Shown: positions 10,981 to 64,000 of the stretch, piece after piece | Layout of the letters: every line of letters begins with the position of its first letter | Numbering within the stretch: position 1 is the stretch's first letter | Origin: Sipunculus nudus | Lineage: Eukaryota > Annelida > Sipuncula > Golfingiida > Sipunculidae | Length of the DNA stretch: 64,000 nucleotides | Reading direction: 5' to 3' | Assembly (NCBI GenBank): GCA_026874595.1 | Contig: CM049314.1 | Location: forward strand, 27,849,729-27,913,728 | The notes under the pieces: generated by a model | What the model was told of the DNA's origin: nothing | Databases searched by the model: none | Seen by the model: the letters and a program-made list of their open reading frames with translations, nothing else | Translations under genes and position numbers: made by a program

Positions 10981-11671
10981 AATTGTTTCTGTCACAGTGG
11001 TTTTATAGATTTACCTTTCCCAACCCAAACTATATCATATGGAATACAGCGGATAAACTAGGGAGCTGCTTCCAAATTATGTTAAGGGGTAATGAAATGG
11101 GGGCCGACCGACGACTGTACACAATAATCATGTGAAGTGATACGTTTTCCTGTCGAGCTGTGGTTAGTCTTCTGTCTGTGGTGTCAGTTTATATATGGTT
11201 TGTTTTTCATAACAATTGATAGAAATAGGAAATATGCTGTGGCAATTTACGTTTACGTCTCTTGGCAAACAAAAAAAACGTGGGGTTTGTTTATTTGCCC
11301 TATCATAACGAGCAACCGTGTTTTCGTGTATTTTCGTCATTAATAACATGCAGGGCGGCATTACCCAGTGACACTGCAAAGTAATTACATACATTTGAAC
11401 CATATCAGTCCACATGCAGCTAACGCACAGAATAGTGTACAGGACTAGTTGTCTGCTTATAGAAAGTGCAGAACCACAACCGTCATCGATGACCCTGATG
11501 AGGCAACAGATTTCTCAGCGTTATACACTTGACAGTGTGCTGTGCTTGTGCCGGGGAGGCAGCTGGAACAAATAGTGAGACTGTAGTAAATTTACAGTTT
11601 TTTTTTCAGAGTTATACAGCTCTGGCCTAGTCTGTAGGCCATAGAGCCCTTTACAACAGAGGGTAAATCTA
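10981..11671. other. Unassigned non-coding DNA
   Basis: Opposed short frames of 68 and 83 codons overlap here, neither with recognisable content. No repeat partner was seen elsewhere in the window. Confidence 0.4.
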
Positions 11672-11672
11672 C

Positions 11673-11675
<3 letters not shown>

Positions 11676-11739
<64 letters not shown>
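11676..11739. repeat. TA microsatellite, about 64 bp
   Basis: Uninterrupted ta repeat. It is followed directly by a dispersed repeat beginning atggcggccatgat. A Tyr/Ile-repeat frame across it is an artefact. Confidence 0.95.
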
Positions 11740-23542: not shown

Positions 23543-24850
23543 CTATGCGTTTGAACAAAGGTTACAACTGAGAATCAAGGCGGCCGAAGCAAAAAACAGT
23601 AAAAATACACCGGGTGGACAAAACACAATATCCTGAACGGTGACTTTGGTTTCCTCAGTACTGCTCCTTGTACTCTCATTCTCGTGACCAGAAACCAAAA
23701 GAGTGACATTGAGCTCTTCCTTTGTTATGTTATTCCGAGATACGCACGTGTAATTGCCGTAAGCAGATTCTTTAAATCTTGACAAATAGGTGAACCCAGA
23801 TTCATCCACATCTGGATTTACGGACCATTCTTTCTTTCCAGATTTGTGTAATTCCAGAACAGGAGCAGGGTTAGCGAATCCCCAACAGTTAATGTGAGTG
23901 CCGTTATAGTCAAGATGTGGAGCAGAGATATTGCAAAAGCCAAAAATATCAATCAAGTCCAACGGCATTGGCAGGTTGTTTTCCTCTACACTGGATGTAT
24001 CAATCACAGTTAGATTTTTACACCCATAGTAAATGTAACTGATGTTCACGTCTGGTATTAACTGTCCGAGATGGGTGGGAGAAGAACATTTATACTGCAT
24101 CCTACAATTATCCGAGTTATAAAATGTGTTTTTTGTAACTAAACAACCACAATGAATGTCATTTTCCATTAGGGTTATGGTCGCATTACATGACTGAAAA
24201 TAGGGGAGATCATCCAGTTTGTTCGCTGTGAGATCAAGCCAATCAAGAGTTTCCGGTAAGGTGGCGTTCCTTTCTATCTTCATTATATGATTATGTGAGA
24301 GACGCAGTGTGACTAGTCTTGAGATAACGGTGAAACGATCTGACATGAAAGCAGTTATATGATTATGACTCAGATCTAAGTACTGCAGATTTACTAATCC
24401 TTTGAATGTTTGAATCTGTAGGTTTGCGAGATTATTGTGGCTCAAGCTCAGAATTCTCAATATTGACAGATTTAGGAAAGCATCGGTCCCGATATCTGCA
24501 ATTTTGTTATTATCTATGTACAATTCCTCAAGTTCAATCAGGTTTAAAAAATGATGCTTAGTAATCCTCTCGATGTAGTTGTATGACAGGTACAAGTATC
24601 TCGCCGCCATATCCTCAGGAAAGGCACTGCTCCCAAGTGAGCGCACATTACACTTTGACAGGTTTACTGTCTTCATGACAGTCAAATCCTCAAGTATTTC
24701 AGAATGAAGTGTCCCGGTCCATGAACTCGATTTATTTAAAATGCAATATCCAACAAGTTTACATGCATTTGAGTTACCAAAATGTAGAAAATGTTGTAAA
24801 ATAAAACATACAGTGGAAAGCACTTTGTGAATGATCTTCCTTGTTTCCAT
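23543..24850 (-). CDS. Single-exon LRR-Ig cell-surface protein, 435 residues
   Basis: This is the only intact sizeable gene. Residues 1-29 form a hydrophobic signal peptide. Residues of about 57-215 hold six or so leucine-rich repeats (LYLSYNYIERI, LEELYIDNNKIADIG, LRILSLSHNNL, LQYLDLSHNHI, LVTLRLSHNHI, LDWLDLTANKL). A cysteine-rich C-terminal cap follows with Cys234, 236, 249, 255 and 277, then one Ig domain (about 300-385) with Cys322 and Cys369 in an YGNYTCV context. A hydrophobic stretch (about 408-429) ends the chain with at most six residues beyond it, so it is a tail-less type I membrane protein or GPI-anchored. Many N-glycosylation sites. The start is in ideal Kozak context (gccATGG). 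Such LRR-Ig proteins act in recognition or adhesion, and innate immunity is often proposed in invertebrates; ligand and partner are unknown. No introns are needed. Three broken relatives lie nearby. Confidence 0.92.
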   Translation of the reverse strand: METRKIIHKVLSTVCFILQHFLHFGNSNACKLVGYCILNKSSSWTGTLHSEILEDLTVMKTVNLSKCNVRSLGSSAFPEDMAARYLYLSYNYIERITKHHFLNLIELEELYIDNNKIADIGTDAFLNLSILRILSLSHNNLANLQIQTFKGLVNLQYLDLSHNHITAFMSDRFTVISRLVTLRLSHNHIMKIERNATLPETLDWLDLTANKLDDLPYFQSCNATITLMENDIHCGCLVTKNTFYNSDNCRMQYKCSSPTHLGQLIPDVNISYIYYGCKNLTVIDTSSVEENNLPMPLDLIDIFGFCNISAPHLDYNGTHINCWGFANPAPVLELHKSGKKEWSVNPDVDESGFTYLSRFKESAYGNYTCVSRNNITKEELNVTLLVSGHENESTRSSTEETKVTVQDIVFCPPGVFLLFFASAALILSCNLCSNA

Positions 24851-26318
24851 GGCGAGCTGTTATGAATCAACTGGCAGAAATATCAGGCCGCCAAGTGTAC
24901 TGGATGTTTACCGCTTGTTTAGGTCCGCATCTATTAAAGATATAACCGCAAAACCAGGAAGTGTTGGTATATATTTAGCCCGTTGGTGTATATTGCAAAC
25001 TCTCTGTCGATATTTATGCAATTTAACTTGTATTTGTTCTGTGTTTTATTTAGGTCAGCTGACAGAAAGTGATTGCGCTCACTCTTTGTCCATCGTATCT
25101 ATGGCTTTCTGTCTGTTCGGCAGTCCCTTAACAAGGCACCATTTGAGTTACTGAGAACACATCCTGTACATATATTGCATACTGAGTACATCACTACGAC
25201 ATATATTCCTTGTGTTAAAGAAAACTTAGGTTACAGCATCTCATAATTTGAGAATCTTGTTAATAAAAATATTCACAAAAGTACTCATGAGCAAAGGACA
25301 GATAGGAGACTAATCGAAAAAAAATATATTTAAAACTGAAAAGAATTCGAATATTTGGACGTTGATTTTGTTCAACATGGAACCAGCCGAAATATAAAAT
25401 GGTAAAACCCATGACGTTTTAAATCTTGTTTATTTGTTCCTCTCATTTGATATACCAGTTGTGTCAATGGTGCCCTAGAGAAGTAACATTCGTGCGCTTT
25501 GAAAAATAAGTTCTAATCATATTTATGCACAATCTGAACAAAATTGGTACAACCAGTTCTTGAAACATGTTTATGGTCTCGTGTACTGTAAAAACGAGCA
25601 TTTAAAGTGATCAATAGGATTCAGATAGGATCTACAAAAATAACCTTTTTCTATAGGCTGAACCCTGTCAAATTTGGTTAAAGAAGGTAAAAGATAAAGA
25701 TAATTTTTGCGTGGTCCCTAGTGTGTCACATTGATATACATAAAATAGGAACTATCAGGTCCTGATTCAAAATTCCACGCACGAGCAACAAGAACTAAGA
25801 CGACTGCACAACTCGTTTACCAGCAGGATGATAACACAGGTAAAAAAAAGCATGTATGAAAAAAACCTGGAAGAAGCAGGAACACAAAACCGGGTAACCG
25901 GAAACTGGTTTTTCCTCCACATCCTTCCTTTTTTTAAGTAGAGACATTACTGCTTAAACAAATCAACTAAATTACTTTGACGTGATCAAAAGATAATTTA
26001 GCTAACCTTAGAAACAAAGCTGGTTGAATCTTCGCTGTGACCACTAGACTTGCAGTGATCAGAGTCCAGTGTACGCACATTACAGTCTAGGTGATTCCGA
26101 GTAATGTAACAAATACAGATGTATATCAATAAGTTTGTGAAACAAAGATACCCTCTTTGATATCAGGCTTACATAATAATTTTCATGTGTTAGTTATATG
26201 GCAATACAGACGGCTGCAAAACTTGAAGGTTGATTTGCGGCGTCACCATCAGGTGTCGCTGGTTGTGCAATAGATCTTTTCGGTTCCACTCTGAGAAGTA
26301 AAATATCGTGTTCTCACA
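24851..26318. other. LRR-Ig 5-prime flank and non-coding DNA
   Basis: Contains the presumed LRR-Ig promoter (minus strand, immediately above 24850), without a clear TATA box close to the start codon. A plus-strand frame of 107 codons at 24831-25154 overlaps the gene start and is probably chance. Confidence 0.4.
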
Positions 26319-35802: not shown

Positions 35803-36159
35803 TATGGCACACGTGTTTACATGATCAATCGGTATTGTATTTACAAACATATAGAAATATGTACTGTGTTTTTATGTTTCCTCCAGATTCCGCTTATCTT
35901 GTTAAAGGTAGTACAAACATATTCATCCAATGAATTTAAACGAACGTACTGTGCTGGTAAAATCTTTATTAAAGCGATCCATGTTATGTGTCAGCTTCAT
36001 GCTGTACAATTAAGTAACCACGAATGTCCTCTGGTCTATTTATATCGCAACTTTCAAGCCCTGTGATATACTGAATGCTGCTCGCTTGTCCGCATATCCT
36101 AGAGTGGATCAGCTGCACAAACCTTTCCCAACATGACATGGTCTTTGTAATATATAATC

Positions 36160-37466
36160 ATGGATAAGTGGAAGTTGCTCTGTACAGTGTATTTCAAATT
36201 TTTGCTGATATTCAATCATTTTTCAGAAGTCACTATCCGGTATGCGTGTGAAAGTAAAGATAGCTGCCTTTTAAACAGTATGCCTGGATGGACTGGAGTA
36301 CTAAACGTTGAGCTTTTGGAACCCCTGGCGGTGCTGACAACACTGAACCTGCCGAACTGTAGTGTGTCCTCACTGGGAACAAATGCGTTTTCGGAGGAGG
36401 TATCGGTAAAATACATGCATCTGTCTTCAAATTATATTGAAAAAATCGCCAAAGGACAACTCCTTAAACTTAGTAAACTTCATGAGTTGTATATGGACAG
36501 GAATAAAATAAAGAATATCGAGCCGGGAGCATTTCAAAAGCTGACAGTATTATCAATTTTGGATCTGAGTCACACGACCTAACGGTCTTGTTACATGAGA
36601 TATTTAATGGATTGATAAATCTGCTGTACCTAAATCTGGGTCATAATTATTTGACTTATTTTACATCTGATTATTTCAACGTATTGCCAAAACTGGCCAC
36701 GCTTCGTCTCTCATATAACAATATAATGGAGGTAGAAACTATTGGCAGCTTACCGGACACTCTTGATTGGCTTGATCTCACAGCGAACAAACTGCGTGAT
36801 CTCCCCTATTTTCAGTCATGTAATGTGACCCTCACCCTGATGGATAATAATATTCACTGTGATTGTTTAGTTCCAAACAGCATTTTTCATAACTCGGATA
36901 CAAGTAGGATGCAGTTTAAATGTTCTTCGCCCATGCATCTAGGACAGGTAATACCAGTCGTGAATATCAGTTACAATTACTACGGGTGTAAGAATATATC
37001 TATGATTAATGCATCTAGTGTAGAGGTAAACGACCTTCTAACGACCTCGGACTTAATAAGTATATTGGTTTCTGCAACATCTCTGCTCCACACCTTGACT
37101 CCAATGGCACTCACATTAAGTGTTGGGAATTTGCTAACCCGGCTTCTGAATTGACACTGTAAAAATCTGGAAAGCTGGAATGGTCTGAAGCTCCAAGTAT
37201 TGATGCACCCGGTGTCACGTATTTGTCAAGTTTGACAAATTCTGTCCAGGGTAACTATACTAGCCAGTAATAATATCACCTTGGTGGCATTAAGTGTCAC
37301 AATTGCCATCAGAAAGGACACCGTATACAACATGATAAATGATACGAACCAGTCTGTTACTAGCACTGTACATTCAGTTATTATCATGGGAACTATGTGT
37401 GTAATTGGGACGAGTAACTTATGTTTACAATCACTTGTCCATTTTATTAAATATATTGAATTGTGA
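36160..37466 (+). pseudogene. LRR-Ig pseudogene, full length, several lesions
   Basis: A collinear relative of the intact gene on the other strand. The signal peptide and first repeats are open (36160-36582: LNLPNCSVSSLGTNAF, LHELYMDRNKIKNIE). A 1-base deletion near 36574 (after LDLSH) shifts the frame. The next frame carries LYLNLGHNYLTYF, LDWLDLTANKLRDLPYF and the LRR cap (NNIHCDCLVPN). A second 1-base deletion near 37064 falls at the start of the Ig domain. A TAA at 37160-37162 stands where the intact gene has a histidine codon (ELHKSG). A roughly 5-base deletion near 37260 removes the second Ig cysteine. A hydrophobic C-terminus then runs to a stop at 37466. Multiple independent lesions argue against a sequencing error. 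Confidence 0.9.
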
Positions 37467-41844: not shown

Positions 41845-43058
41845 ACGCATCTACCAGTAAAGCTGAATGTATTATACACAATACCAGAAAGTGGAATGGG
41901 TCTCTGAGTGCTTCACTAACGCAGGATTTTACAATCTTGTTAACACTGAACCTGTCGACGTGAAATGTGCTCCACCTCGGGAACAATGCGTTTACTGGAG
42001 AAAAAGTGGTTACATATCTGTGACTGTCATCAAACTGTATTGATAAAATCAACAAGAACAAAGCAATCTTAACAAAATACGTGAATTGTACCAAGACCAA
42101 AATGACATTTAGCTTGTCCAGGTAGGTGGTTTCCATGATATGGTGAATTTGAACATTCTAGATCTGAGCTATAATGATCTCACTGACCTAGAGACCGGCA
42201 TATGTTAAGGTTTACTCAGCCTATAATGCCTGGAGCTTAGTCACAATCCTGTGAGCTATTTAGTATCATAATAATGCAGGAAAGTCCCAGAATAAGGCAC
42301 TTCGATGATGAAATTCACTGGAAGTTTTTAATTTCAAAATAGCATCATTCTTTAGTCCAAAAAAAGTAGATTTAATTTTAAATATTCTTCGATCAGATGT
42401 CCGTGGCCTGAATGAATGGCGTAAACATAAGTTGCAGTGTTTACGGTTGTAAAAAAAATATGTCGACTACAGAGGCAAAAGACCTTGCAGCACTCTCGGA
42501 CCTGATTGATAACATTGTCTTTGCAACATATCTGCACCACAACTCATTAACTTACATTAACTGTCGGAGTTTTTCAAACCCGGCTCCAGTTTTGGCATTG
42601 TATACATCTCGGGGAATGGAATGGTCAGAGAGTCCAAGCAGTGACGAAACTAGTGTCATGTGTCTCTCCAGATTTAATTTTAAATATTCTTCGATCAGAT
42701 GTCCGTGGCCTGAATGAATGGCGTAAACATAAGTTGCAGTGTTTACGGTTGTAAAAAAAATATGTCGACTACAGAGGCAAAAGACCTTGCAGCACTCTCG
42801 GACCTGATTGATAACATTGTCTTTGCAACATATCTGCACCACAACTCATTAACTTACATTAACTGTCGGAGTTTTTCAAACCCGGCTCCAGTTTTGGCAT
42901 TGTATACATCTCGGGGAATGGAATGGTCAGAGAGTCCAAGCAGTGACGAAACTAGTGTCATGTGTCTCTCCAGAATCACAGAATCTATCCAAGATAAACA
43001 TACTTGTGTAGCTACCAATAAAAGCACCTTTTTGGAACTTAACGTCACAATAGTGTAA
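41845..43058 (+). pseudogene. LRR-Ig pseudogene with internal tandem duplication
   Basis: From about 41850 one frame reads SKAECIIHNTRKWNGSL, then LLTLNLST, a stop, VLHLGNNAFTGEKVVTYL, another stop and LSSNCIDKINKNK. This corresponds to the N-terminus and first repeats of the intact gene. NLNILDLSYNDLTDL (about 42145) and LELSHNPVSYL follow between further breaks. The Ig part (VNISCSVYGCKK, YINCRSFSNPAPVLALY, and HTCVATNKSTFLELNVTIV) is present twice because of a 302-bp duplication. Much of the cysteine-rich cap is missing. The frame ends at 43058 without the hydrophobic C-terminus; a gtaagt at 43055-43060 could be a donor site but is more likely coincidental. Confidence 0.88.
42368..42971 (+). 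repeat. 302-bp exact tandem duplication
   Basis: Copy 1 is 42368-42669 and copy 2 is 42670-42971; both begin agatttaattttaaatattc and end gtcatgtgtctctcc. The encoded Ig peptide is identical in both for about 86 residues. Since 302 is not a multiple of three, the duplication itself breaks any frame. Confidence 0.95.
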
Positions 43059-43476: not shown

Positions 43477-44080
43477 CAGTATGCTCTCGTTTAATTACCC
43501 ACCCGCTTATTTTCCAAACACGCCTTCAGCCAACGATTCACAAATTCCCGATCTTCCTTCTTTACATTTATCAGATGATGCCGACACCCTCGATTATCCT
43601 TCACCCTCGCTTATCGCCAACATTTTACTCGATCCCGAAATCGGCGAATAAATGGGAGTAGACTTCTTATCTGTTTTAACATAATTTGGAAATAAATCCT
43701 GTACTCAAAGATTACACTTGTACAAAAGTCCATTCGTTTTCTTGCGCATGGATATAACGAACAGCCTACGTACTCTGGCAGCATCTCCGTTTAAAGATAA
43801 CCGATGTCCAATAGTTCCTGACTCTAAGTTGCATTAGATGTACAGGTGATGGATGTATTCATTATCAATGTTATAACCTTAAAACATATTTCTTAAGGAT
43901 TTTTTTAACATTTGGTAGAATAACTTCCGAGGTACACTAAATTTAATTTTTCTATAGTCTTTAGAACATTCAACTGAGCTAAAAATATTTTTGACCCCAG
44001 TACAAGCACCAATTATACTAATGAAATACGGAAATGGATGGACACAACACAAAAATGATTGAAAGTGGCGCAATTAGTCA
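43059..44080. other. Non-coding DNA with a 61-bp TA tract (43412-43472)
   Basis: The TA tract is uninterrupted. An 89-codon frame through it combines a Tyr/Ile artefact with a Pro/Ser-rich stretch and is not credible. Confidence 0.6.
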
Positions 44081-44545
44081 TGTTAAGATATATAGACAAT
44101 TGAACATGCACAATTTCCGGCATATACTTCAAACCCCTTTCTAGCTATGGGCATAGATGTATGAAACACAATTTCAGGTTTGCATGTCAAATCACTCCTG
44201 AAAAAAAAGCACGGACATATACTGTGTAAAAATATATTGAAGGTAGCACTATCGATTTTGTGTAGACAGAGCTATCCGAGATGTATAGATATGGACAATT
44301 TCAGGTTGATATATAAAATCCCTCCTGAGAAATAAGCAGGGACATGGTCTGTGCAAAAAAAAATTGTAGATTGCGCAATCAGTCTTGTTTATGACGAAGC
44401 TAGGTGTTATGTATAGACATGCACAATTCAGGCTGGTATATCAAATCCCTCCTGAGAAAAAGCAAGGATATACACTGTGCTCAAATGATCGTGGTGGCCA
44501 GGCGAGTTTTGTGTACGAAAACGTTATCAAAGATACATGAGCTTT
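44080..44545. repeat. Degenerate tandem repeat, period about 130 bp, array 1
   Basis: Three to four units share catgcacaattt-caggct, tatcaaatccctcctgagaa, agcagggacat-tactgtgc and cgcaatcagtcttgtttatg. The same unit makes up a second array at 50300-50960. No protein is conserved across the units. Confidence 0.75.
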
Positions 44546-44819
44546 CTTTGTTCCCAGTCTGTTTTTCACTTTATTATGAATTTGTACAAAGTTATCATCT
44601 CAATTGTAGCTGATGAAGCAAGTTGATGAGCTTGGCGTCAACTCATCCTTGAAAAAACAAAGATACCCAACGAAAGCCTAGTGGGAGCTGACACTATGAA
44701 ACCATGACCCAACAGGAAGTTGTTACATATACACCAGTCACACTGTAGCCAATTGCTTTTTTATATGATTAGTACATGAGCCCTATGCCTCTTGGATCAT
44801 GTACCTCCCGAGGTCTTGG

Positions 44820-45130
44820 TCATTAAGGAAATCTATTTGAAATCATTTGTATCACTCTACAGAAATCCAACATGCATCTAGGTTTTTACATTATTTTTCA
44901 AAGGTGTAAAAAACCTGTTTTACATGACATTAGTTCATTAGTATATTTATGAATTAATTTTTGAACTCATGGGTATCACTGTTTTTCAACAGGTTTTTAC
45001 ACGTAAGTGTAGAAAACGTGTTTTTTATGACATTAGTACATTAGATCATAATTAAATAAGGTTTAATTATTTGACCAATTGGTATCAATAAAGAGAATTT
45101 CAACATAATTCTAGGGTTTTTTAACTTTAT
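44820..45130. repeat. Short tandem repeat, period about 110 bp
   Basis: Two to three diverged units share ggtatcactg, ggtttttaca, gtgtaaaaaacctgtttta and catgacattagttcattag. Confidence 0.65.
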
Positions 45131-46886
45131 TTATATATGGTTTGTAAACTGTGTAAAAAACTAGCCAACCCTGATTAGCAATGCAACATTTCAGGATGAT
45201 ACATCAAACTTCTCAGTCAGGTTACCCAGATGAGCAAGTTAAACTGCACTTGCACTCACATTAACCGGAACTAATTTGCAGGGGGCCGCTGCTGCACTGA
45301 GTGAACTTTTGATTTGCACCCGGAGGCACTGACTGAACACTTGACCTGTTGCCTAGTCTGATACAGTTGGCAGTCTGCCAAAGCTATAAATAGGTTAGGA
45401 CTAAGATTTGGCCTTTTGTAAAATCGAAACAGGTACAATGTGAGCAGCTACTTATAGGTACAGACTAAATCATGATCTATTGCCAAATCTTTTCACACAT
45501 ACTTAAAGACTTGGGATACAATGCTTTTTTCCATTCTCACATACTCATTAGACTTTTATTAAAACGTTTAAGGTTGATAACAGATGCCTTTAAAAACAAA
45601 AACAGAATACAGTTTTTTATTTATTCATTGGTTAAACGTAAACATAAATTTGATATGGACCACAATTATCTATATTACCTGTACAGCTCTGCTACCACAA
45701 CAAATTTACTAGTTTGTTTACCAAAGTATCTCACAGTCCTTTCATCGTTAAAGATCCGATTATCCTGCTAAAAATCATTTAAGTAAACATGATTAAAGGT
45801 AACCTAAGAATAATATTTGTGCAATGTTACAGAATATGAAACAATTTTGCAGAAAAAGGTTATTGCAGTTCTCAGTTTGTTATAGGATTACTTGGTCAAA
45901 GGACAAACTTCAGCTTTACATGACTCTACTAATATGTATTCTTATACAATTGAGACAACCCTACCTTTGATAATGCTTGTGAAAAACAAAACCATTCAGC
46001 TTGACATTGACAGTTTTAATATAGAAACTGAAAGGAACTAACATTGCGATGTACGTGCCTTGTTTCAGATCGATGTAGATGGCTCAGTTTAGAATATGTC
46101 ATGTAAACAACATTTGCACAAAACTTGGTGATGCTAGCTCCTGTCTTTTATTCGGTTGTTACGTTAGCATATGCCTTCTTTGCCAAATGACCAAGATCAA
46201 ATTCCTGTGACCAAAATAGATCGAATCCAAACCATTTCAACAACCTTGAGAGAGCTTACCTCTGGAATCATTGCTGTGAAATATTGAATAATTTGGCTGA
46301 ATAATTTCAGAGAAAAGATTGTCAAGGTTTTTTAGCTGTTCCCGGTAAAATGTAATTTGATGAAGGTGGTCTCACCAATTCCACACCATTTGACGTTTGA
46401 CTAATTTTTCCTACAATTTTAGGGAAACTAGCTCCTGCTATTCCAGAGAAATGAGGGGGTATTGCACTGATGGCAGATGACCCCCGTATAAAAAAAGGTC
46501 GATGCAGTTGGCGCCACTCAATTTTAAATTTGACTCATGTGACCAATATTTCCATTAAATTGGTGATGATGGCTCCAGCCGTTTCTGATATTGTATTTTA
46601 AGTATTTTTTTAATGCTCAAGATCAATAAACATAAAAAGTTTAAGGACGTCAAATGAATCCAGAGATGAGAAACTGTACCGTTTCTTTGACATATAAAAA
46701 TATAGAAAAAGATGCGTGAGCATAAAATACAGGTGGCAGCACCACCTTCCCGACAGTGATGCAACAATTCATGATCAATATTCAAGGCAAGATTCATGGC
46801 AACCCAGGCATTTAGCATTAAGATGCAGCAGGTTTTGTGTCCACTTTTAATTTGTTCTAGGGTGCCGTCAAACGCCCCATATATAA
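45131..46886. other. Unassigned non-coding DNA before the Penelope remnant
   Basis: If the Penelope-like element had been full length its reverse transcriptase would lie here; no RT motif was found in any frame. A 99-codon plus frame (45472-45771) is not recognised. Confidence 0.45.
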
Positions 46887-47285
46887 ACACACATTTTTAA
46901 ATACGTATATGCCTCACTACAGGCAAATACGCTCCATACAACTAACGGAAACGGAAAAGCGGATGAAAGGTACAGCGGTCTCACGGAAAACTCCTTTAAA
47001 ACAAGATACAACAACCATAAAACATCTTTCAGACACCCGAAAAAAAGGAAAAGTACGGAACTCAGCAAATACATTTGGGAGCTAAAACATAACAACGTCA
47101 AATTTGAAATACAGTGGAAAATACTCAGAAAAGCCAGATGTAACGTATGCCTGTGGGAGAAATATTTCACTTTGTGTAAACAAAACATGGCCACGCTTAA
47201 CCAAAGCGATGAACTTGTAACAAGTTGTAGACACGCTAACAAATTCCTCCTACGTAAACTCAACACAAAGAGTAATCCAGATTAG
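46887..47285 (+). pseudogene. Penelope-like element GIY-YIG endonuclease, 3-prime end
   Basis: A plus frame of about 132 codons, ending in TAG at 47283-47285, matches the C-terminal GIY-YIG endonuclease of Penelope-like retroelements. It includes a VYAS/RYSGLTEN pair (positions of GIY and YIG), SFKTRYNNHKTSFRHPKKRK, STELSKYIWELKHNNVKFEI, a CNVC pair with LWEKYFTL, and SCRHANKFLLRKLN at the end. This endonuclease nicks target DNA for reverse transcription. It is 5-prime truncated: an in-frame TAA lies at 46884-46886 and the RT domain is absent. YIG has become YSG. A hammerhead ribozyme follows 80 nt downstream, as reported for this class. Confidence 0.85.
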
Positions 47286-47366
47286 GCACGTTGTACAAAT
47301 CCACGTTGTAATAATCACAAACACGCTCTAGTGAACAACAAGTTGTTAAATTACAACCCCTCCAGT

Positions 47367-47423
47367 CATACTGTTCTGAAGAGTGCCGTAAAAACGGTAC
47401 GAAACTAATAAGTCAACACGATG
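47367..47423 (+). ncRNA. Type I hammerhead ribozyme motif (Penelope-associated)
   Basis: All core parts occur in the right order. Core CTGAAGA at 47376-47382. Stem II GTGCCGT (47383-47389) pairs with ACGGTAC (47394-47400) around an AAAA loop. GAAA is at 47401-47404. A short stem III ACT/AGT (47404-47406 with 47411-47413) closes an AATA loop. The cleavage triplet GTC ends at 47414. Stem I pairs AACA (47415-47418) with TGTT (47372-47375) and, beyond a 2x2 internal loop, ATG (47421-47423) with CAT (47367-47369). The short stem III is typical of Penelope-type hammerheads. It lies just downstream of the GIY-YIG frame on the same strand. Activity is predicted from structure only. Confidence 0.85.
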
Positions 47424-47450
47424 TTTACAATCGTTTGATTCCTTAAACAT

Positions 47451-47561
47451 GATATATATATATATATATATATATATTGATACGCTCTGGTTATACTATA
47501 GAGCACTTTGCCATCAGTGCATTGCCAACAGCCTAGAAAGAACAAGTGTAAAAACGTATAT

Positions 47562-47610
<49 letters not shown>
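47451..47610. repeat. Two TA arrays flanking a Penelope-end-like segment
   Basis: TA arrays at 47451-47476 and 47557-47608. Between them the plus strand reads gatacgctctggttatacta and agagcactttgcc-tcagtgcattg. This resembles the minus strand of 63575-63635 (aaacgctctcgtatggcaga, gcactatcgcc), suggesting related element ends. Confidence 0.7.
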
Positions 47611-47611
<1 letters not shown>

Positions 47612-47683
47612 GTAAAGTTACCTTCCGTTGTTAATTGCTCTATGGGCTACAGACTCCGCCAGAGAGATATAACACTGAAATAA

Positions 47684-47749
47684 AACAACACTGTAAATTC
47701 ACGACAGACTGTTTCACGGGATCAACCCGATCATCAGGTGAATGTTGTT
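47684..47749 (-). ncRNA. Type I hammerhead ribozyme motif, opposite strand
   Basis: On the minus strand the core CTGATGA lies at 47737-47731. Stem II is CGGG (47729-47726) with CCCG (47720-47717), loop TTGAT, with a non-canonical U-U closing pair. GAAA is at 47715-47712. Stem III is ACA/TGT (47712-47710 with 47706-47704) around a GTC loop. The cleavage triplet GTC ends at 47703. Stem I pairs GTGAAT (47702-47697) with ATTCAC (47743-47738). After a 7-nt one-sided internal loop it pairs GTTGTT (47689-47684) with AACAAC (47749-47744). The stems are independent of the plus-strand ribozyme, so this is a different family. No GIY-YIG frame is seen upstream on this strand. Confidence 0.82.
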
Positions 47750-47754
47750 AGAAT

Positions 47755-48540
47755 GAAGTGTAGACTCCAAACACGAGTACTTTTCGTATGCAATAACGGT
47801 TTATTGTTTTCTGAAGCATGTTTCTCTTAAGCTACCAAGCACATGCGGCCTTAAGAAAATGGCATTGCATGGCTGCATCTCTTGCATTATATACCTCGAG
47901 CAACGAAGAAAGCAATAGGTGGTAGATACATTCTGAAGGTCATGTAAATATTTAGTGTCGTATTCTCTTGGTGCTAGCTGGTATTTATCTACCGTGGGAA
48001 ATGATAAAGCCAATCAATGTAAACTTTAAGCGTCTGGCTAATTTAACATGACCCTGAATCAGGTACCTCCAGGAATGGCTGGTCAACGCAGGATATACAG
48101 GTGTTGGTTTCGTGGGTTGGGTGTATTACCAATTTTGTTTGGCCGAACGTTACAGTAAAACAGGCAAATATCGTACTTCCAGTGGAAATCAAACATACTA
48201 CACGATCTGTTGTCCAAGTAAATAAATTACAGTTCAAATGTTGCTTAAACATTGAAATTGTCTTACCTGGTTTCCTAAACACTACACTGCCACGTCATGA
48301 TTCCACGTCAGCTCTTGGCTGCCTGGATCTTAATGTCCAATAAGATAACGTATTTACGAAGTGATCGCCACGTGTTAAGTCTGTGTCATATTGTTGAACA
48401 AACAAACCTCGCTTGTTGGGCATTGACGCACGTAAATGTGACAGTAGCTTTGTGTTATACAAAAATACTTCATCAACATATTTTTAATACCATTTTATTT
48501 TCTAATTAATACACCATGCAGATAAATTTGCTTTATATTT
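47755..48540. other. Unassigned non-coding DNA
   Basis: Presumably includes the body or flank of the element ending in the minus-strand hammerhead. Overlapping short frames on both strands have no recognised content. Confidence 0.4.
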
Positions 48541-48549
48541 TATATACAT

Positions 48550-48592
48550 ATATTTATATATATATATATATATATATATAAATATATATATA
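48550..48592. repeat. TA-rich microsatellite
   Basis: Mainly ta repeat with single-base interruptions. Confidence 0.85.
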
Positions 48593-48652
48593 TTGATGTA
48601 TTGGTTTCCTGAAATGAACAACTGCTAAAGTGCTCTATTCTATGACATTTTT

Positions 48653-49174
48653 AGTAAATTTAAGAACCTTTAACAGTATTCTTTTTTGTCGGGATAGATA
48701 CATGTATTTTATGTTACGACGTCAGATTCGACGGGTCATCTGGTGCAAGTGAAAAGTCTGCTTATTTGTTGAGTCTATTCAATGGACAAGATATCCGTTG
48801 ACGCAGTTCAGACCATGTATATAGATTTGTTTATCTATGTGTGTATATATTTGTGTATATATGCATGCGTGTTTTATGTCTGTGTGTATATATGTATATG
48901 CATATGCGCATAAAGTAAATTTAAGAACCTTTAACAGTATTCTTTTTTGTCGGGATAGATACATGTATTTTATGTTACGACGTCAGATTCGACGGGTCAT
49001 CTGGTGCAAGTGAAAAGTCTGCTTATTTGTTGAGTCTATTCAATGGACAAGATATCCGTTGACGCAGTTCAGACCATGTATATAGATTTGTTTATCTATG
49101 TGTGTATACATTTGTGTATATATGCATGCGTGTTTTATGTCTGTGTGTATATATGTATATGCATATGCGCATGT
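48653..49174 (+). repeat. 261-bp near-identical tandem duplication
   Basis: Copy 1 (48653-48913) and copy 2 (48914-49174) both begin agtaaatttaagaaccttta and contain ttgtcgggatagatacatgt and gcatgcgtgttttatgtctg. One substitution was noticed (tgtgtatatatttg versus tgtgtatacatttg), and the junction differs by a base or two. Each copy ends in tgtata-type microsatellite, which continues to about 49260 after copy 2. Confidence 0.93.
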
Positions 49175-50295
49175 GTGTTTATATTTACCTATATACGTAT
49201 AGGTATGTGTTTCTATATTTTAATGTATTTTCGTGTGTATGCATATGAGATGTCTGTATATTGACCCACGCTAGATGTTTGCATTTTTCACACAAACATT
49301 TCACTGCATGCATATGAACCATGAGTCTGCAATAAACATTATCTATATATAAAGGCTATATAAGTTTGAAACAAAATTGTATGGGGTATGTTAACGTAGG
49401 TGGAGTTATTTTTATTTGTTTTTTTTTGCAGATAAAATTCTATAAACTCAGAAAATAAAACACATGAACTTAAATCCGTGTACCATAGTATATCATTCAG
49501 TATGACTTTCAGATTGATAAGCATCCTGGCCCTGTACCAGCAGATGGATTTCGTTCCAAAGCAATTAGGCCCTCAAGGAGAAGTTGGGACAACTATGGTT
49601 CTATTGAACTATAATTTGTCTATGAAATAATGAATTTAACACTTTTTTAGGGGGGGATAAATGACATTTATTATTGTTTACAGGCTATGACCTTTTTGTA
49701 CGGGGTTGTATGGAGTTTCCTCGGGTTGTGATATTAAAATTGTATATATAATATTAATATATATATATATATATATATACACTATTTAAAAACTTCGAAT
49801 TCAAGTCCTTATTCTTAGATAAATGTCAGGTCCAGTTCAATTAACGCTTATTTTATTCATAAAAAAGATCAATATTAATGCATTTTTTTTTTCATTGCAA
49901 ACAGATATTAAGATATCCCGTGTGGTGATACTTAAAAGTCATTAAGAGAGATAAAGCAGCATTTCATTTCTGCTCACCATGTTCCATGTGACACACATTA
50001 TTAGTAATGGGCCTGCGGTAAACATTGTGTGTTTCCTAACTTTATTTATTACTACAAACCTGTCTAATTGCTATGCACACGGAAACAATAAGAATATTTA
50101 CACATATAAGATACTCTAAATATACATTTTACATGTGTACTGTGACATTCATGTTTTAGGGTGGGCATAAAAATACTGACTTCCAAGAGCGGTTTGGAGA
50201 ACCTAAAGAAATGAACATGTTAGTGTACGATAAAGATGTTGGGATAAGACACAAAAGTGTTATGGAAGACAGCGCCGAGTCTAGAATATATGCCT
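49175..50295. other. Non-coding DNA with tgta-type and TA microsatellites
   Basis: Microsatellite tail to about 49260 and a short TA tract at about 49755-49780. No gene recognised. Confidence 0.5.
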
Positions 50296-54190: not shown

Positions 54191-54702
54191 TCCGTATCGC
54201 AGAGTTTAGTAACATTTGGGTGATTTAAGAAAGGGCATTCTGTATAATCGTGTATGGACGTATTTCTAGTTTTATATAACTGACCGTAGTATTGGCTGCA
54301 TTCATGAAGTATTCTGTTTTTATTATATATCTGTTTTCAATTTACTTCTAAGCAAACAATTTGTTCATTGATCGCATTATGTTTTTCTAATTGAAAAAAA
54401 AGTATTTGGTGTTTTTCTCTCCATACTCATACCAGCAAAGTTTTGATCTCAACATTGCGCCTTTCGTTTAAAAGTTGTATAAATTACCTATATTTTCTTT
54501 AATTTTGGCTATTTTTTTTTTACTTGCAAATCAAAATCTTCAGGATCCTCATTTGTTCTCTCACTTAATATTTTAAAATCCTCTGTAAGTATTTTTTTCA
54601 TTATTCCTTTTTTTTATTTATATTCGTTTCGATTATTGTATCGTGTGGCCTCTTATCTCGCATTTAACTGTATCCCAAACAATATTTTTATTATCTACGT
54701 TT

Positions 54703-56747: not shown

Positions 56748-57781
56748 TTACTGTGACAGCATGAAAGATGTGTACTTCTTTGGTGCTTTATAGGTTACAT
56801 AATGTTCAAAGGAAACTGATCTAGACTTTCATCTACCAATATGCATAGCTGTGTCAGGATCACATTGGTGCTCAACTGCCTTTGTGGCAGCTGAGGGACG
56901 GAAACATTTAGCAGAAATGACCCTGTCCACCAAGTCCTGCAGCAGATATACTGTCCTGTAAAATCTGACCTACTGTAGCGGCAGAAATAGCAGAGTATGG
57001 CTTCCAAAGAGTAAGGAACAATGGGCCCTTTGGCCCTCTCATATGAGATATTCGGACAATATAAGTCTGTAGGCAAAGTACAGGGTCGATCTGTTTATCA
57101 GCACACTGGGGCAAAGTAACTGAAAACCCTGATCTATCAGTGTCATTCTTTATTCCATGGTAAGTAATAGTAAGGAATCCTTCACTTTTAAACTCTAATT
57201 GGTCCATGGAAAATAACATTCGCTTAGCATCACCTGACCCTGGGTCAAACTGAACAGCCTTAGGTACAAGATCAGAGGGTCTAAGCATGTAAGTCATAGC
57301 GAAGAATGTGATTGCTTTCATACGTACTTGCTTTATTGACAGCTTGTCATTCTCTAGGCAAGCTTTGAAGAGATCAGTAAATGGTTCAACTAGGAGCAAT
57401 TTTACACGTCTATGAGGGACAGTAGTACCTGATTCATCCCATCCACCATTCTTTTAATGTTATTATCAACAGTAATATCAGGCAACTGATGGGCCACATA
57501 GCAGTGAGACAAAGCAGCAAGCATGGATTGTAAAGTGGACCTAGGCCTATCAAACGCATCAGATAGTACACATAACAAATCTGCTAGGTCTGCCGTTTTC
57601 GCTGGTGGGAACACAACCTTGGGTTTTCCGTGCAAAAGTAAAATAACTTGTTTAAAAGTCTGTTATAAAGCTGTAATGTGGACTGAGACAGACTGAACGG
57701 GAGCTGCCTTGCAGCACGTTGTGACCAACCTATAGCAAGTAGCCGATCTTGCCAGATATTCGCCAAGCATACAGGCGCCAC
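56748..57781 (-). pseudogene. Tyrosine recombinase of the Ngaro-like element
   Basis: The N-terminal core-binding part (57781-57402) shows QLPFSLSQSTLQLYNRLLNK, PKVVFPPAKTADLADLLCVL and RPRSTLQSMLAALSHCYVAH. The catalytic part (57399-56908) has TYMLRPSDLV (first catalytic Arg), ITYHGIKNDTDRSGF (Lys region) and LQTYIVRISHMRG. After a frameshift near 56930 it continues KCFRPSAATKAVEHQCDPDT (second Arg region), AMHIGR, a stop in place of Trp, and VSFEHYV, where Tyr is the nucleophile, ending at 56748. This enzyme would integrate a circular DNA intermediate. Three frame breaks and one nonsense codon inactivate it. Confidence 0.88.
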
Positions 57782-58560
57782 CCTGGGTTCTTAAAGGTTC
57801 CGGCTGCAGTCCCAGTGGTATTACCCTACGTTTGTTTTTCGGTAGCCTGACAGACCTGTCTATGCATAAGCTGAAGAGCCTGTGGAACCAAGACTGACTG
57901 GGCCACCAGGAGGCGATCAGGGTAGCGTCTGCCTTCTGAGAAACGACTAGGGCCAGCATTCGAGGAATTACCCAAAACGGGCAGTTTACAAAGCTGTTGC
58001 ACCCCCCCCCCCCCCAGTTGGTTTTGGCCAGGGCATCGACAGCCTCGGTCAGAGGTTCCCAGTACAGTCTGTTGTATCTTGGGAGCTGAGTTATTATGAG
58101 GGATGCAAACCGGTCTATGTCGTGAGGACCCCATAGTCAGTCTAACATTTGAAACAAGCGAGGGCTCATGATCCAGTCGTAAGTAGTGAGCTTTCGTGAT
58201 AATAAGTCGGCATGAGTATTTTCTGGACCAGCCAAATGCGGCATCCCATAAAGCCCTTGCTATATGTGTCAGTTGTAAACATGGGCCGCCTAAGTGGTTG
58301 ATGTAGGCAACACTGGAGACATTGTCTGTTAGAACCTGTACAACTTTTCCCTTGAGCAGAGGCATAAAAGTTAGTAAGGGTAAAAGTATGGCTAACAGCC
58401 AACAAAGATCCCTGCAGTTGGCGGGATTTAGACATTGTCGGTCTGTCCATGAGTTTCTTGTAGCAAGCAACCGATACAAATTACGAAGTAGTAGTTTGGC
58501 AGGTAAAATACACAATGTCTTACTAATACATTGGTCTGCTATACGTGCTAGTGCCCTAGC
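57663..58560 (-). pseudogene. RT C-terminus and RNase H of the Ngaro-like element
   Basis: The minus frame begins LTARALARIADQCIS and CILPAKLLLRNLYRLLATR, the end of the RT module. RNase H follows with LLKGKVVQVLTDNVSSVAYI and NHLGGPCLQLTHIARALWDA. The LTDN aspartate is a catalytic-type residue. A C run at about 58001-58014 coincides with a frame change. In the other frame ADATLIASWWPSQSWFHRLF, typical of the RH-recombinase linker in DIRS-like elements, is readable. Confidence 0.82.
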
Positions 58561-58599
58561 AGTTAGTCAACCTTGATTTAAGGCTCTATTTATATCCTT

Positions 58600-59411
58600 C
58601 CTAAGTCTCCTCACCCTATCTTTGGGGATGTAAATGCAAGTTTTGTTATCATTTGTAAAGGTACATATTTTACACCCAAGGAAATTAACCACATGACTCG
58701 GAAGCAGATTGGATTTTTTCCCAGTTTATAAACCAGCCAATATTCTGTTATACTGTTAGCAGTAAATCTTTGTGTGCATCAATATTATGACTACCATTAA
58801 TATGAAGCATTCAACATAAGCAACAACCTTCAAGTTGTTTTGTCTCAAATATTTAACTACAGGCCTATTACACTTCTGAAAATAAAATGGAGAAACACAT
58901 AAACCAAAGGGTAAAACCTGCCATACATAATATTTTCCCCTCCGAAAAAAATCCTAAATACTGTTGGTGCTCCCTGAGAACAGAAATATAATAAAAACCA
59001 TTGCGTATATTTAAGTGTTATAAGTTTGTCATGAGGCTTGACAAGTGACTGTTCAGTTCTAATATCCTCTTGTTTGAATGAAGGTACATCACATCACCTG
59101 TTTACCTCTCGAAGATCTGTAATCAGTCTCAACTGATTATTTCTCTTCGGCACCACTGAAATGGGAGACACACAGGCAGGTTTAGAGTCAACCTGTCTCA
59201 CAGCACCAGATTGAAATAAGCATTCGAGTTCATTGTCAATAAAAACACAGTGTTTATAATCAACAACCCTATTTTGGAATTCAAAATAATGATGTAATAC
59301 CCTGAACGGTATTGCAACACCCTGTGTTAACCAGCTAATGACTTGTGAAGGCGCCCAAATGTTTGCATAAGCTTTAGCATTTAATGAGTTTGCTGAAAAC
59401 GGTATACACAT
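58600..59411 (-). pseudogene. Reverse transcriptase of the Ngaro-like element
   Basis: The frame 59411-59094 reads YFEFQNRVVDYKHCVFIDNE, SGAVRQVDSKPACVSPISVV and PKRNNQLRLITDLREVN, the entry blocks of DIRS-type RT. Further on, in shifting frames, come EHQQYLGFFSEGK and KCNRPVVKYLRQNNLKVVAY. The active-site position reads AYVECF, where functional enzymes have Y-V/A-D-D, so both aspartates are lost. Several stops are present. Confidence 0.82.
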
Positions 59412-59651
59412 AGTCCATGGGCATGAAAATTATTAATGAGCCTGCTGGAACTTGCATACACATAGTCCATGGGCATCAAAAGTAGGCAGCAGTGTTGAGA
59501 ACCAACAGAAGTAGCTAAAAATCTAAATGTTAACAGCACACAGGGTTACCAATCAATTCCGATCACGGCCGTCCTGCTGGGATTGTCTTGAATATGGAAC
59601 ACCAGAATCTTAGAAATTCCGGAATGCAGAGGTATTGGCATTGTACTGTCT

Positions 59652-63516: not shown

Positions 63517-63565
<49 letters not shown>
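63517..63565. repeat. TA microsatellite, about 50 bp
   Basis: Uninterrupted ta repeat bordering the structured segment that follows. Confidence 0.95.
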
Positions 63566-63569
<4 letters not shown>

Positions 63570-63627
63570 GCATTGTTCACATAATATTCAATGCATCAAG
63601 GCGATAGTGCTCTGCCATACGAGAGCG

Positions 63628-63800
63628 TTTCTAATTAATTAATGTTCAGTTAGTTTGCAATATTGCCGTTGCTCTCACTCATCAGGTACCGCAGTGATGA
63701 GCAATGAGTGAGAGCAACTTTTAACATTGCTCCCATGAAACAGTACTGTTGTACCAACGGATGAAGTCAAACTAACTGAACACTAATTAATTATATATAT
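63628..63800. repeat. Nested inverted repeat with hammerhead-like elements
   Basis: Outer arms: aattaatgttcagttagttt (about 63636) and its near-inverse aaactaactgaacactaatt (about 63770). Inner arms: gttgctctcactcat (63668-63682) and the exact inverse atgagtgagagcaac (63704-63718). On the plus strand GGTAC (63685-63689) can pair with GTACC (63751-63755). A GTGATGA core-like run lies at 63694, GCAATG (63701-63706) pairs with CATTGC (63725-63730), and GAAAC-AG-TA-CTGT follows at 63737-63749. This resembles a decayed hammerhead with extra bases and a changed first core residue. Confidence 0.5.
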
Positions 63801-63922: not shown

Positions 63923-63957
63923 TTGTAGAATGAATTTTAGGCATTTTTTAACTAAAT

Positions 63958-64000
63958 ACTTTCGTACCACATACACATAGCGTGTGCCACTCTTCAGGTG
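63958..64000 (-). ncRNA. Partial hammerhead-like motif, cut by window end
   Basis: The minus strand shows CTGAAGA (63997-63991), a stem II GTGGCAC / GTGGTAC with one G-G mismatch and one wobble pair, then GAAA (63963-63960) and GTATTTAGTT. The last part is related to GAAACTAATAAGTC of the 47.37-kb ribozyme but with stem III and cleavage-site changes (C to G, C to T). It is a relative of that ribozyme, probably inactive. Stem I lies beyond the window. Confidence 0.5.

Follow-up and report, generated by a model that had tools for sequence, protein, structure and literature searches.

A stretch of 57 nt in the genome of Sipunculus nudus (1.43 Gb in 153 contigs) reads as a small self-cleaving RNA, which raises the question of what element it belongs to, whether this copy still cuts and whether the cut marks an end of the element's RNA. 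The window, that is, the whole stretch of DNA analysed, comprises 64,000 nt (contig C9:27849729–27913728), and the genome was searched for relatives of the sequences in it. The initial annotation had read the 57 nt as a type I hammerhead ribozyme with a very short stem III, belonging to a Penelope-like element (PLE) and invisible to ORF-based annotation, a last point with which we agree. The features of the window that bear on these questions are listed here.

11578–11675 (+): family B tail copy without a recognisable hammerhead, ending at (AT)n 11676–11739
46912–47550 (+): PLE-A, a 5'-truncated family A copy running from the coding interior to a long 3' end at about 47550 (blastn to L010; leader homology ends at +118)
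46914–47285 (+): open frame P0001 with its stop TAG, the C-terminal half of the endonuclease (EN) fused to an upstream piece, without the GIY half
46946–46949: internal deletion point, about 547 bp relative to L016 (comparison with the segmental duplicate)
47367–47423 (+): hammerhead HHR-1, predicted cut after 47414 (motif reading, RF00163 register, descriptor, 45-row alignment)
47452–47477 (+): (AT)13 within the leader, corresponding in position to the short AT run of the sister copy L009 (GATATATATTGATAC)
47484–47513 (+): hairpin module M of family A (GCTCTGG...ATAGAGC ACTTTGCCA)
47557–47608: (TA)26 array with one interruption, at which PLE-A and PLE-B meet 3' end to 3' end
47609–47758 (-): PLE-B, part of the pLTR of a second Penelope-like family; on the upstream side its similarity ends at about 47758
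47629–47666 (-): hairpin module M of family B
47686–47748 (-): hammerhead HHR-2, core 47737–47703, predicted cut after 47703 (pattern scan, descriptor, family B rows)
63566–63640 (-): a decayed tail resembling that of family A, which includes a module-M-like stretch and stops at (AT)n 63517–63565; 0 of 1000 shuffles reach its score against tail A
63951–63997 (-): HHR-3, a probable decayed hammerhead like HHR-1, with core and stem II kept and stems I and III not

The order of parts first proposed for HHR-1 was confirmed position by position: CTGAAGA (47376–47382), a 7-bp stem II (47383–47389 with 47394–47400, loop AAAA), GAAA (47401–47404), a stem III of 3 bp (A47404–U47413, C–G and U–A, with loop AAUA), GTC, and a two-part stem I in which UGUU/AACA and CAU/AUG are separated by a 2x2 internal loop. 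The predicted cut site is 3' of C47414. A type I hammerhead is defined by CUGANGA, GAAA and UH in this order and by stem I being the open one of its three stems, II and III being closed; CTGAAGA is permitted because position 7 of CUGANGA is free. HHR-1 has this core and these stems, and its alignment to RF00163 agrees with the definition.

A stem-aware descriptor found two places on both strands of the window, HHR-1 and HHR-2, against 0.021 per simulated window (n=1000). Motifs as good as HHR-1 arose in 0 of the 1000 simulated windows and motifs as good as HHR-2 in 2, figures that flatter both hammerheads, as the descriptor thresholds were fixed after the motifs were known. The descriptor found no third place in the window even with one core mismatch allowed. 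Scanning the window for core plus stem II gave four places against 0.56 expected (three or more in 7 of 300 simulated windows), one of which, at 54543 on the minus strand, looks like chance. Rfam returned no match at the gathering threshold for the whole window, and 16 matches, none of them a hammerhead, for a 1-kb slice around HHR-1 at E-values up to 10. With a 91-nt slice, RF00163 was the better of two Rfam matches and lay in the right register, at 14.5 bits (E=0.45) and thus below the 34 bits at which Rfam admits a member. The initial annotation had named a significant covariance match as the check to make, but as a ground for refutation this is too strict: Rfam also misses seven of seven loci with related copies (five of family A, two of family B), so its threshold seems to exclude the PLE hammerhead variant of the HHR-1 type. 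In the proposed folding check, the hammerhead fold (-9.7 kcal/mol) was not the minimum-energy structure (-10.8 kcal/mol), from which it differs by about 1.1 kcal/mol, and the stability of the 71-nt stretch is unremarkable (z=-1.08). For two HHR-1 copies placed in tandem, the predicted fold was not a dimeric hammerhead.

The 141 bases around HHR-1 have at least 44 genome matches, window included, among the best 40 of 290 candidates scored, a procedure by which copies with odd ends may be under-counted. We aligned 45 rows of this family, here called family A (the window plus 44 blastn pieces from 34 of 35 fetched loci). Each core base is kept in 43–45 of the 45 rows, two free positions excepted; at position 7, 32 rows have A, 12 have T and one has a gap, 17 have C and 28 have A as the cut base, and two have lost the G of GAAA. 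Stem II pairs hold in 42–45 rows at each step, while the fourth pair of stem I is C.A in 41 rows and T-A in four, the window among the latter. Covariation is slight, given how similar the copies are. In 43 rows the stem-III strand is a 10-nt palindrome that can pair with itself along its whole length, namely ACTAATTAGT and one- or two-step variants of it, with a fourth stem-III pair (III.4) of A-U in 24, G-U in 18 and G-C in one; the two exceptions are the window copy and L016. Self-duplexes of this strand are predicted at -9.0 and -9.2 kcal/mol for the common forms, -13.6 kcal/mol for a third family form and -0.8 kcal/mol for the window. The palindrome suggests that family A ribozymes may cleave as dimers. 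A nearly identical subset of 12 rows with CTGATGA and cut base A (L010, L012, L014, L015, L033, L035, L037 and L041) suggests the recent spread of one subfamily. Close inverted pairs of family A pLTRs occur at L012, L013, L014, L015, L018, L030 and L039; one arm of the pair starts inside stem II in L018, and in L012 the junction falls within the coding region.

Coding sequence at the related loci indicates the type of element. The minus strand of L010 holds a C-terminal frame with SVIYQATV...TYIGLTENSFKTRYNNH and an upstream frame with GLYRDDG, and a frame with GLYRDDG is also present in L009. We take YRDD to mark a reverse transcriptase (RT) and the IYQ...YIG of L010 a GIY-YIG endonuclease, an assignment that would place both enzymes in one element, as in PLEs. 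Pfam, NCBIfam and PDB returned no RT or GIY-YIG match for the proteins tried, and some unrelated families at weak E-values. L009 and L010 hold tandem units of 2425 and 2428 bp, each with a hammerhead, in the order coding end, stop, hammerhead, leader; the next listed ATG lies 166 nt past the cut in L009. The pLTR holds the hammerhead, and pLTR copies in tandem or partial tandem, inverted pLTRs and 5' truncation, all traits of PLEs, are present. Telomeric repeats just past the hammerhead, as in a terminon, were not found: the window copy is located within contig C9, with (TA)n directly at its 3' end. Given the repeat family, the conserved core, the RT and GIY-YIG frames and the 2.4-kb units with a hammerhead in each, HHR-1 is a PLE hammerhead, a known kind, as had been claimed.

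The window copy itself is damaged. By blastn to L010, positions 46912–46946 correspond to 2312–2346 of its reverse complement and 46949 onward to 2894 onward. L016, a segmental duplicate of window 43845–49986 about 572 kb away on the same contig (aligned blocks 91–98% identical), retains about 547 bp of element sequence that is missing from the window at 46946–46949. Through this deletion P0001 became a fusion without the GIY half, so that the claimed position just downstream of a Penelope GIY-YIG frame holds in that HHR-1 lies just past the coding end, but not for the local frame. Our initial guess of a short microhomology deletion for the loss of the GIY half is ruled out by the length seen in L016. 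AlphaFold modelled P0001 poorly (mean pLDDT 53.9), the protein matched no RT or GIY-YIG entry in Pfam, NCBIfam or PDB, and of its candidate relatives in viral contigs (2 stretches) and genome contigs (597 stretches), none was confirmed. Further along the same duplicated block, 48653–49172 is a tandem duplication (99.6% identical, spacing 261 bp) that is single copy in L016. As stem-III symmetry is lost in both the window copy and L016, HHR-1 of the window is probably a weak ribozyme or a relic.

Three other readings of HHR-1 deserve weighing. A Rfam score far below gathering, an unremarkable folding energy and descriptors set after the motif was known are all what a chance match to a short, loosely defined motif would give. 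We nevertheless give this reading almost no credence, since at least 44 genome matches, the window included, share the conserved core, a degree of conservation across copies that we judge refuting; furthermore, none of the 1000 simulated windows had an equally good motif, and the hammerhead sits at the same place in tandem PLE units. It is only marginally less improbable that HHR-1 came from a small non-autonomous retrozyme (tandem repeats of about 170–400 nt with a circular RNA) lying beside a PLE by accident. Short pLTR-only arms with a whole or partial hammerhead do exist in this genome, and type I hammerheads with weak helix III are known in animal retrozymes, which are further described as having short tandem repeats and no RT (excerpts of PMC7229834). 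The hammerheads of L009 and L010, however, recur at 2.4-kb spacing with PLE coding sequence between them: two of the three loci scanned for repeats are built of the 2425- and 2428-bp coding units rather than non-coding repeats of about 170–400 bp, none of the three holds a hammerhead array of 170–400 bp, and the 410–412 bp spacing in L009 corresponds to coding pieces.

Whether the window copy works today, processing the RNA of its own locus, is a separate matter. The initial annotation had considered that it could self-cleave, or recently could. The core bases of HHR-1 are all intact, whereas L016 has lost the G of GAAA, and its stem I has a T-A pair (47372–47418) found in only 4 of 45 rows. 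Against this stand a stem III of just 3 bp, the 5' truncation and deletion of the copy and the broken stem-III palindrome, whose self-duplex has fallen to -0.8 from the -9.0 kcal/mol of a common form, and a working ribozyme at this locus appears unlikely.

HHR-2, absent from the initial annotation, lies tail-to-tail with PLE-A at the same (TA)n. A pattern scan identified it on the minus strand at 47737–47703 (CTGATGA...GAAACAGTCTGTC); there is an outer stem in addition to the 6 bp of stem I, and stem II has a U.U at its base. Its 91-nt slice gave no hammerhead match in Rfam, and its pattern had no match in viral contigs. The forced hammerhead (-8.6 kcal/mol) is less stable than the best fold (-15.7 kcal/mol; z=-0.51), which retains stem II and part of stem I. 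The region has at least 51 genome matches, window included, among the best 40 of 1583 candidates scored. In the 40 rows aligned as family B, from which L044 (the window itself) was left out, the core is conserved, stem III is close to a palindrome and 38 rows have the U.U. As the cut base, 22 rows have A, 12 have T, five have C and one has G; a hammerhead with G as cut base should not cleave. Among 28 family B loci beyond the window and its duplicate, with pieces of fewer than 61 query bases dropped, three contain clear PLE protein pieces (EN at 46% identity in L070 and 48% in L068, RT at 41% in L071) and L073 a weak one; the pieces in L070 and L071 run in hammerhead orientation, and the EN piece of L068 is opposite. 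Owing to these protein pieces, HHR-2 most likely belongs to a second PLE family. We considered whether a single pLTR, copied in inverted orientation, could account for both HHR-1 and HHR-2, and rejected this: the two have no significant mutual alignment and separate lists of genome matches.

That the cut would define an RNA end of the element, as the initial annotation had it, is not supported by the copies. The leader can be followed past the cut in all 45 family A rows, each of which continues beyond it, and none ends at the cut; shorter copies may have escaped the search, whose query extended 26 nt beyond the cut and in which the best candidates alone were scored. Short 3' ends are found in 25 rows, ends at +118 to +124 in 13 and other ends in four (+90, +115, +130 and +153), while three rows run into the ORF. 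The short-end rows lose the leader at a short AU run, about +36 to +46: an AT array of at least 12 nt starts there in 20 of them, it comes later (+60, +79), after interrupted AT-rich sequence, in two, and none of that length is present in three. In 12 of the 13 long-end rows a TA run occurs in the next 22 bases, the thirteenth, L010, being AT-rich. Module M sits between the short and long ends, which are about 80 nt apart. The (AT)13 at 47452 was rejected as the end of the element, as homology runs through hairpin M to about 47550. In family B, the AT array of seven arms starts at +32 to +43, just ahead of the place of module M, and no start at the cut was found among the 51 listed matches (query 79; the best candidates were scored, and shorter copies could be absent from the list). 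In 14 of 41 family B rows, with the window counted twice, the usual upstream sequence breaks off 14–23 nt before the core; the initiator-like motif seen upstream of the core is too short to count as evidence. Module M matches the window three times by one pattern and twice by another, both patterns being post hoc. As a whole, tail A and tail B are not significantly similar (129 of 1000 shuffles reach the score), but 0 of 1000 do so for tail A against the 11578 copy, and it is from this comparison and the short post hoc hairpin pattern that kinship of the two tails is drawn.

At the (TA)n site, L016 has an inverted head-to-head pair of family B arms, one long-ended and one short-ended, joined within hammerhead core and stem II and with TA repeats on both sides. 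An insert between TA repeats supports insertion into (TA)n; another reading is that an insert of the L016 type was lost from the window copy. Part of the (AT)n beside copy ends could also have arisen by expansion of the AU run that the element itself carries, and not from the target.

Other parts of the window contain further repeats. HHR-3 is a probable relic hammerhead in which CTGAAGA, stem II and GAAA are found with no visible stem I pairing and a broken stem III; of 5000 shuffles, 7 attain its alignment score, and an unrelated stretch scores just as high. The decayed family-A-like tail lies about 300 nt beyond it and adjoins what is, by eye, a probable MITE (63639–63790) with TIRs of at least 15 bp (TGTTCAGTTAGTTTG / CAAACTAACTGAACA) and TTAATTA flanks. 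Two long frames, at 23543–24859 (-) and 36151–37154 (+), share 74% DNA identity over 915 bp and look to us like leucine-rich-repeat plus Ig-like receptors, and a 305-bp tandem duplication, 100% identical, at 42368–42974 includes a receptor-like ectodomain piece. Frames at 56908–59429 (-) resemble the recombinase and RT of a DIRS-like retrotransposon.

Minimal type I hammerheads of Penelope-like elements were reportedly described by Cervera and De la Pena in 2014 and by Lunse, Weinberg and Breaker in 2017. HHR-1 resembles them in its type I order, its very short stem III and its tandem pLTR copies. Compared with these hammerheads as excerpts of PMC7761336 present them, family A differs in the 10-nt palindromic stem III of 43 of 45 rows, family B in the basal U.U of stem II, kept by 38 of 40 rows, and both in the hairpin 3' of the hammerhead. 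The same excerpts state that dimer cleavage is possible for PLE hammerhead variants, and amphibian hammerheads, with a palindromic tetraloop on a weak stem III, are described as cleaving as dimers (excerpts of PMC6155905, PMC7229834 and PMC7761336). Among animal retrozymes, likewise with type I hammerheads, some share the weak helix III (PMC7229834, in part). Parallels also come from PAc, a Poseidon element of Anolis carolinensis, in which, according to excerpts of PMC11167929, the hammerhead lies at the pLTR–ORF junction, the target is AT-rich and two reverse-transcription starts beyond the hammerhead delimit an optional tail, as in family A. There the ORF begins at stem II and the cut falls 26 nt into it, whereas the first listed ATG of family A is 166 nt past the cut; the optional tail measures 30–40 bp, against about 80 nt with hairpin M in family A; and the starts are said not to match the target, whereas both family A ends lie at AU-containing sequence beside AT-rich DNA. 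According to these excerpts, the anole hammerhead is inside the copied region, with reverse transcription starting beyond it, catalytic ribozyme mutants left insertion in vitro unchanged, and the ribozyme cut only with protein present. Bdelloid Penelope elements share inverted pLTRs, an optional tail and tandem or truncated copies with family A; their tail is 31 bp against about 80 nt, and the word 'hammerhead' has no occurrence in the text of PMC3846280.

Taken together, it is very likely that HHR-1 is the pLTR ribozyme of family A PLEs, that the copies examined were not made from cut-ended RNA and that the window copy is probably weak or a relic, all three jointly. In the element's RNA, the ribozyme would separate the end of one coding unit from the leader of the following one, and it would cut this RNA once, most likely as a dimer of two ribozymes paired through the palindromic stem-III strand. 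The DNA copies examined would not have been made from RNA ending at the cut; judging from the copy ends, reverse transcription may start further 3', at one of two AU-containing sites flanking the hairpin, and is likely to be primed by (TA)n DNA of the target. The sequence comparisons establish the repeat family and its conserved core, the tandem units, the copy ends beyond the cut, and the duplication and the deletion; cleavage, dimer use and (TA)n priming are what we infer from them. The window copy would be an old 5'-truncated insertion that suffered an internal deletion, was duplicated with its surroundings and lost its stem-III symmetry.

A broader reading, which we put forward tentatively and regard as rather unlikely with all its steps taken together, draws on a layout common to the two families, whose proteins are only 41–48% identical: a hammerhead at or near the RNA 5' end, the cut, about 32–46 nt further on an AU site for priming, then a hairpin whose ends match and a second priming site. 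The hammerhead would make unit-length RNA, which would then be circularised or used as a multimer, and reverse transcription from the leader sites would run back through the hammerhead and the gene. This would place the hammerhead just inside the 3' end of a copy and give tandem copies when transcription runs round. The hairpin might be a docking or start signal, and priming on both target strands could yield inverted pairs, some of them meeting at or just upstream of the hammerhead.

The review PMC7761336, as excerpted, describes the role of PLE hammerheads as unknown. The S. nudus genome offers two repeated PLE families with sharp copy ends, a segmental duplication that places an interrupted and an uninterrupted (TA)n site side by side, and natural variants with a broken core, a broken palindrome or a changed cut base, so the effect of cleavage on insertion becomes testable both on the copies and in vitro. 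The PLE hammerhead variant is passed over at Rfam thresholds. For specialists, the value of the locus may lie in a like layout in two distant families, with natural test cases within one genome.
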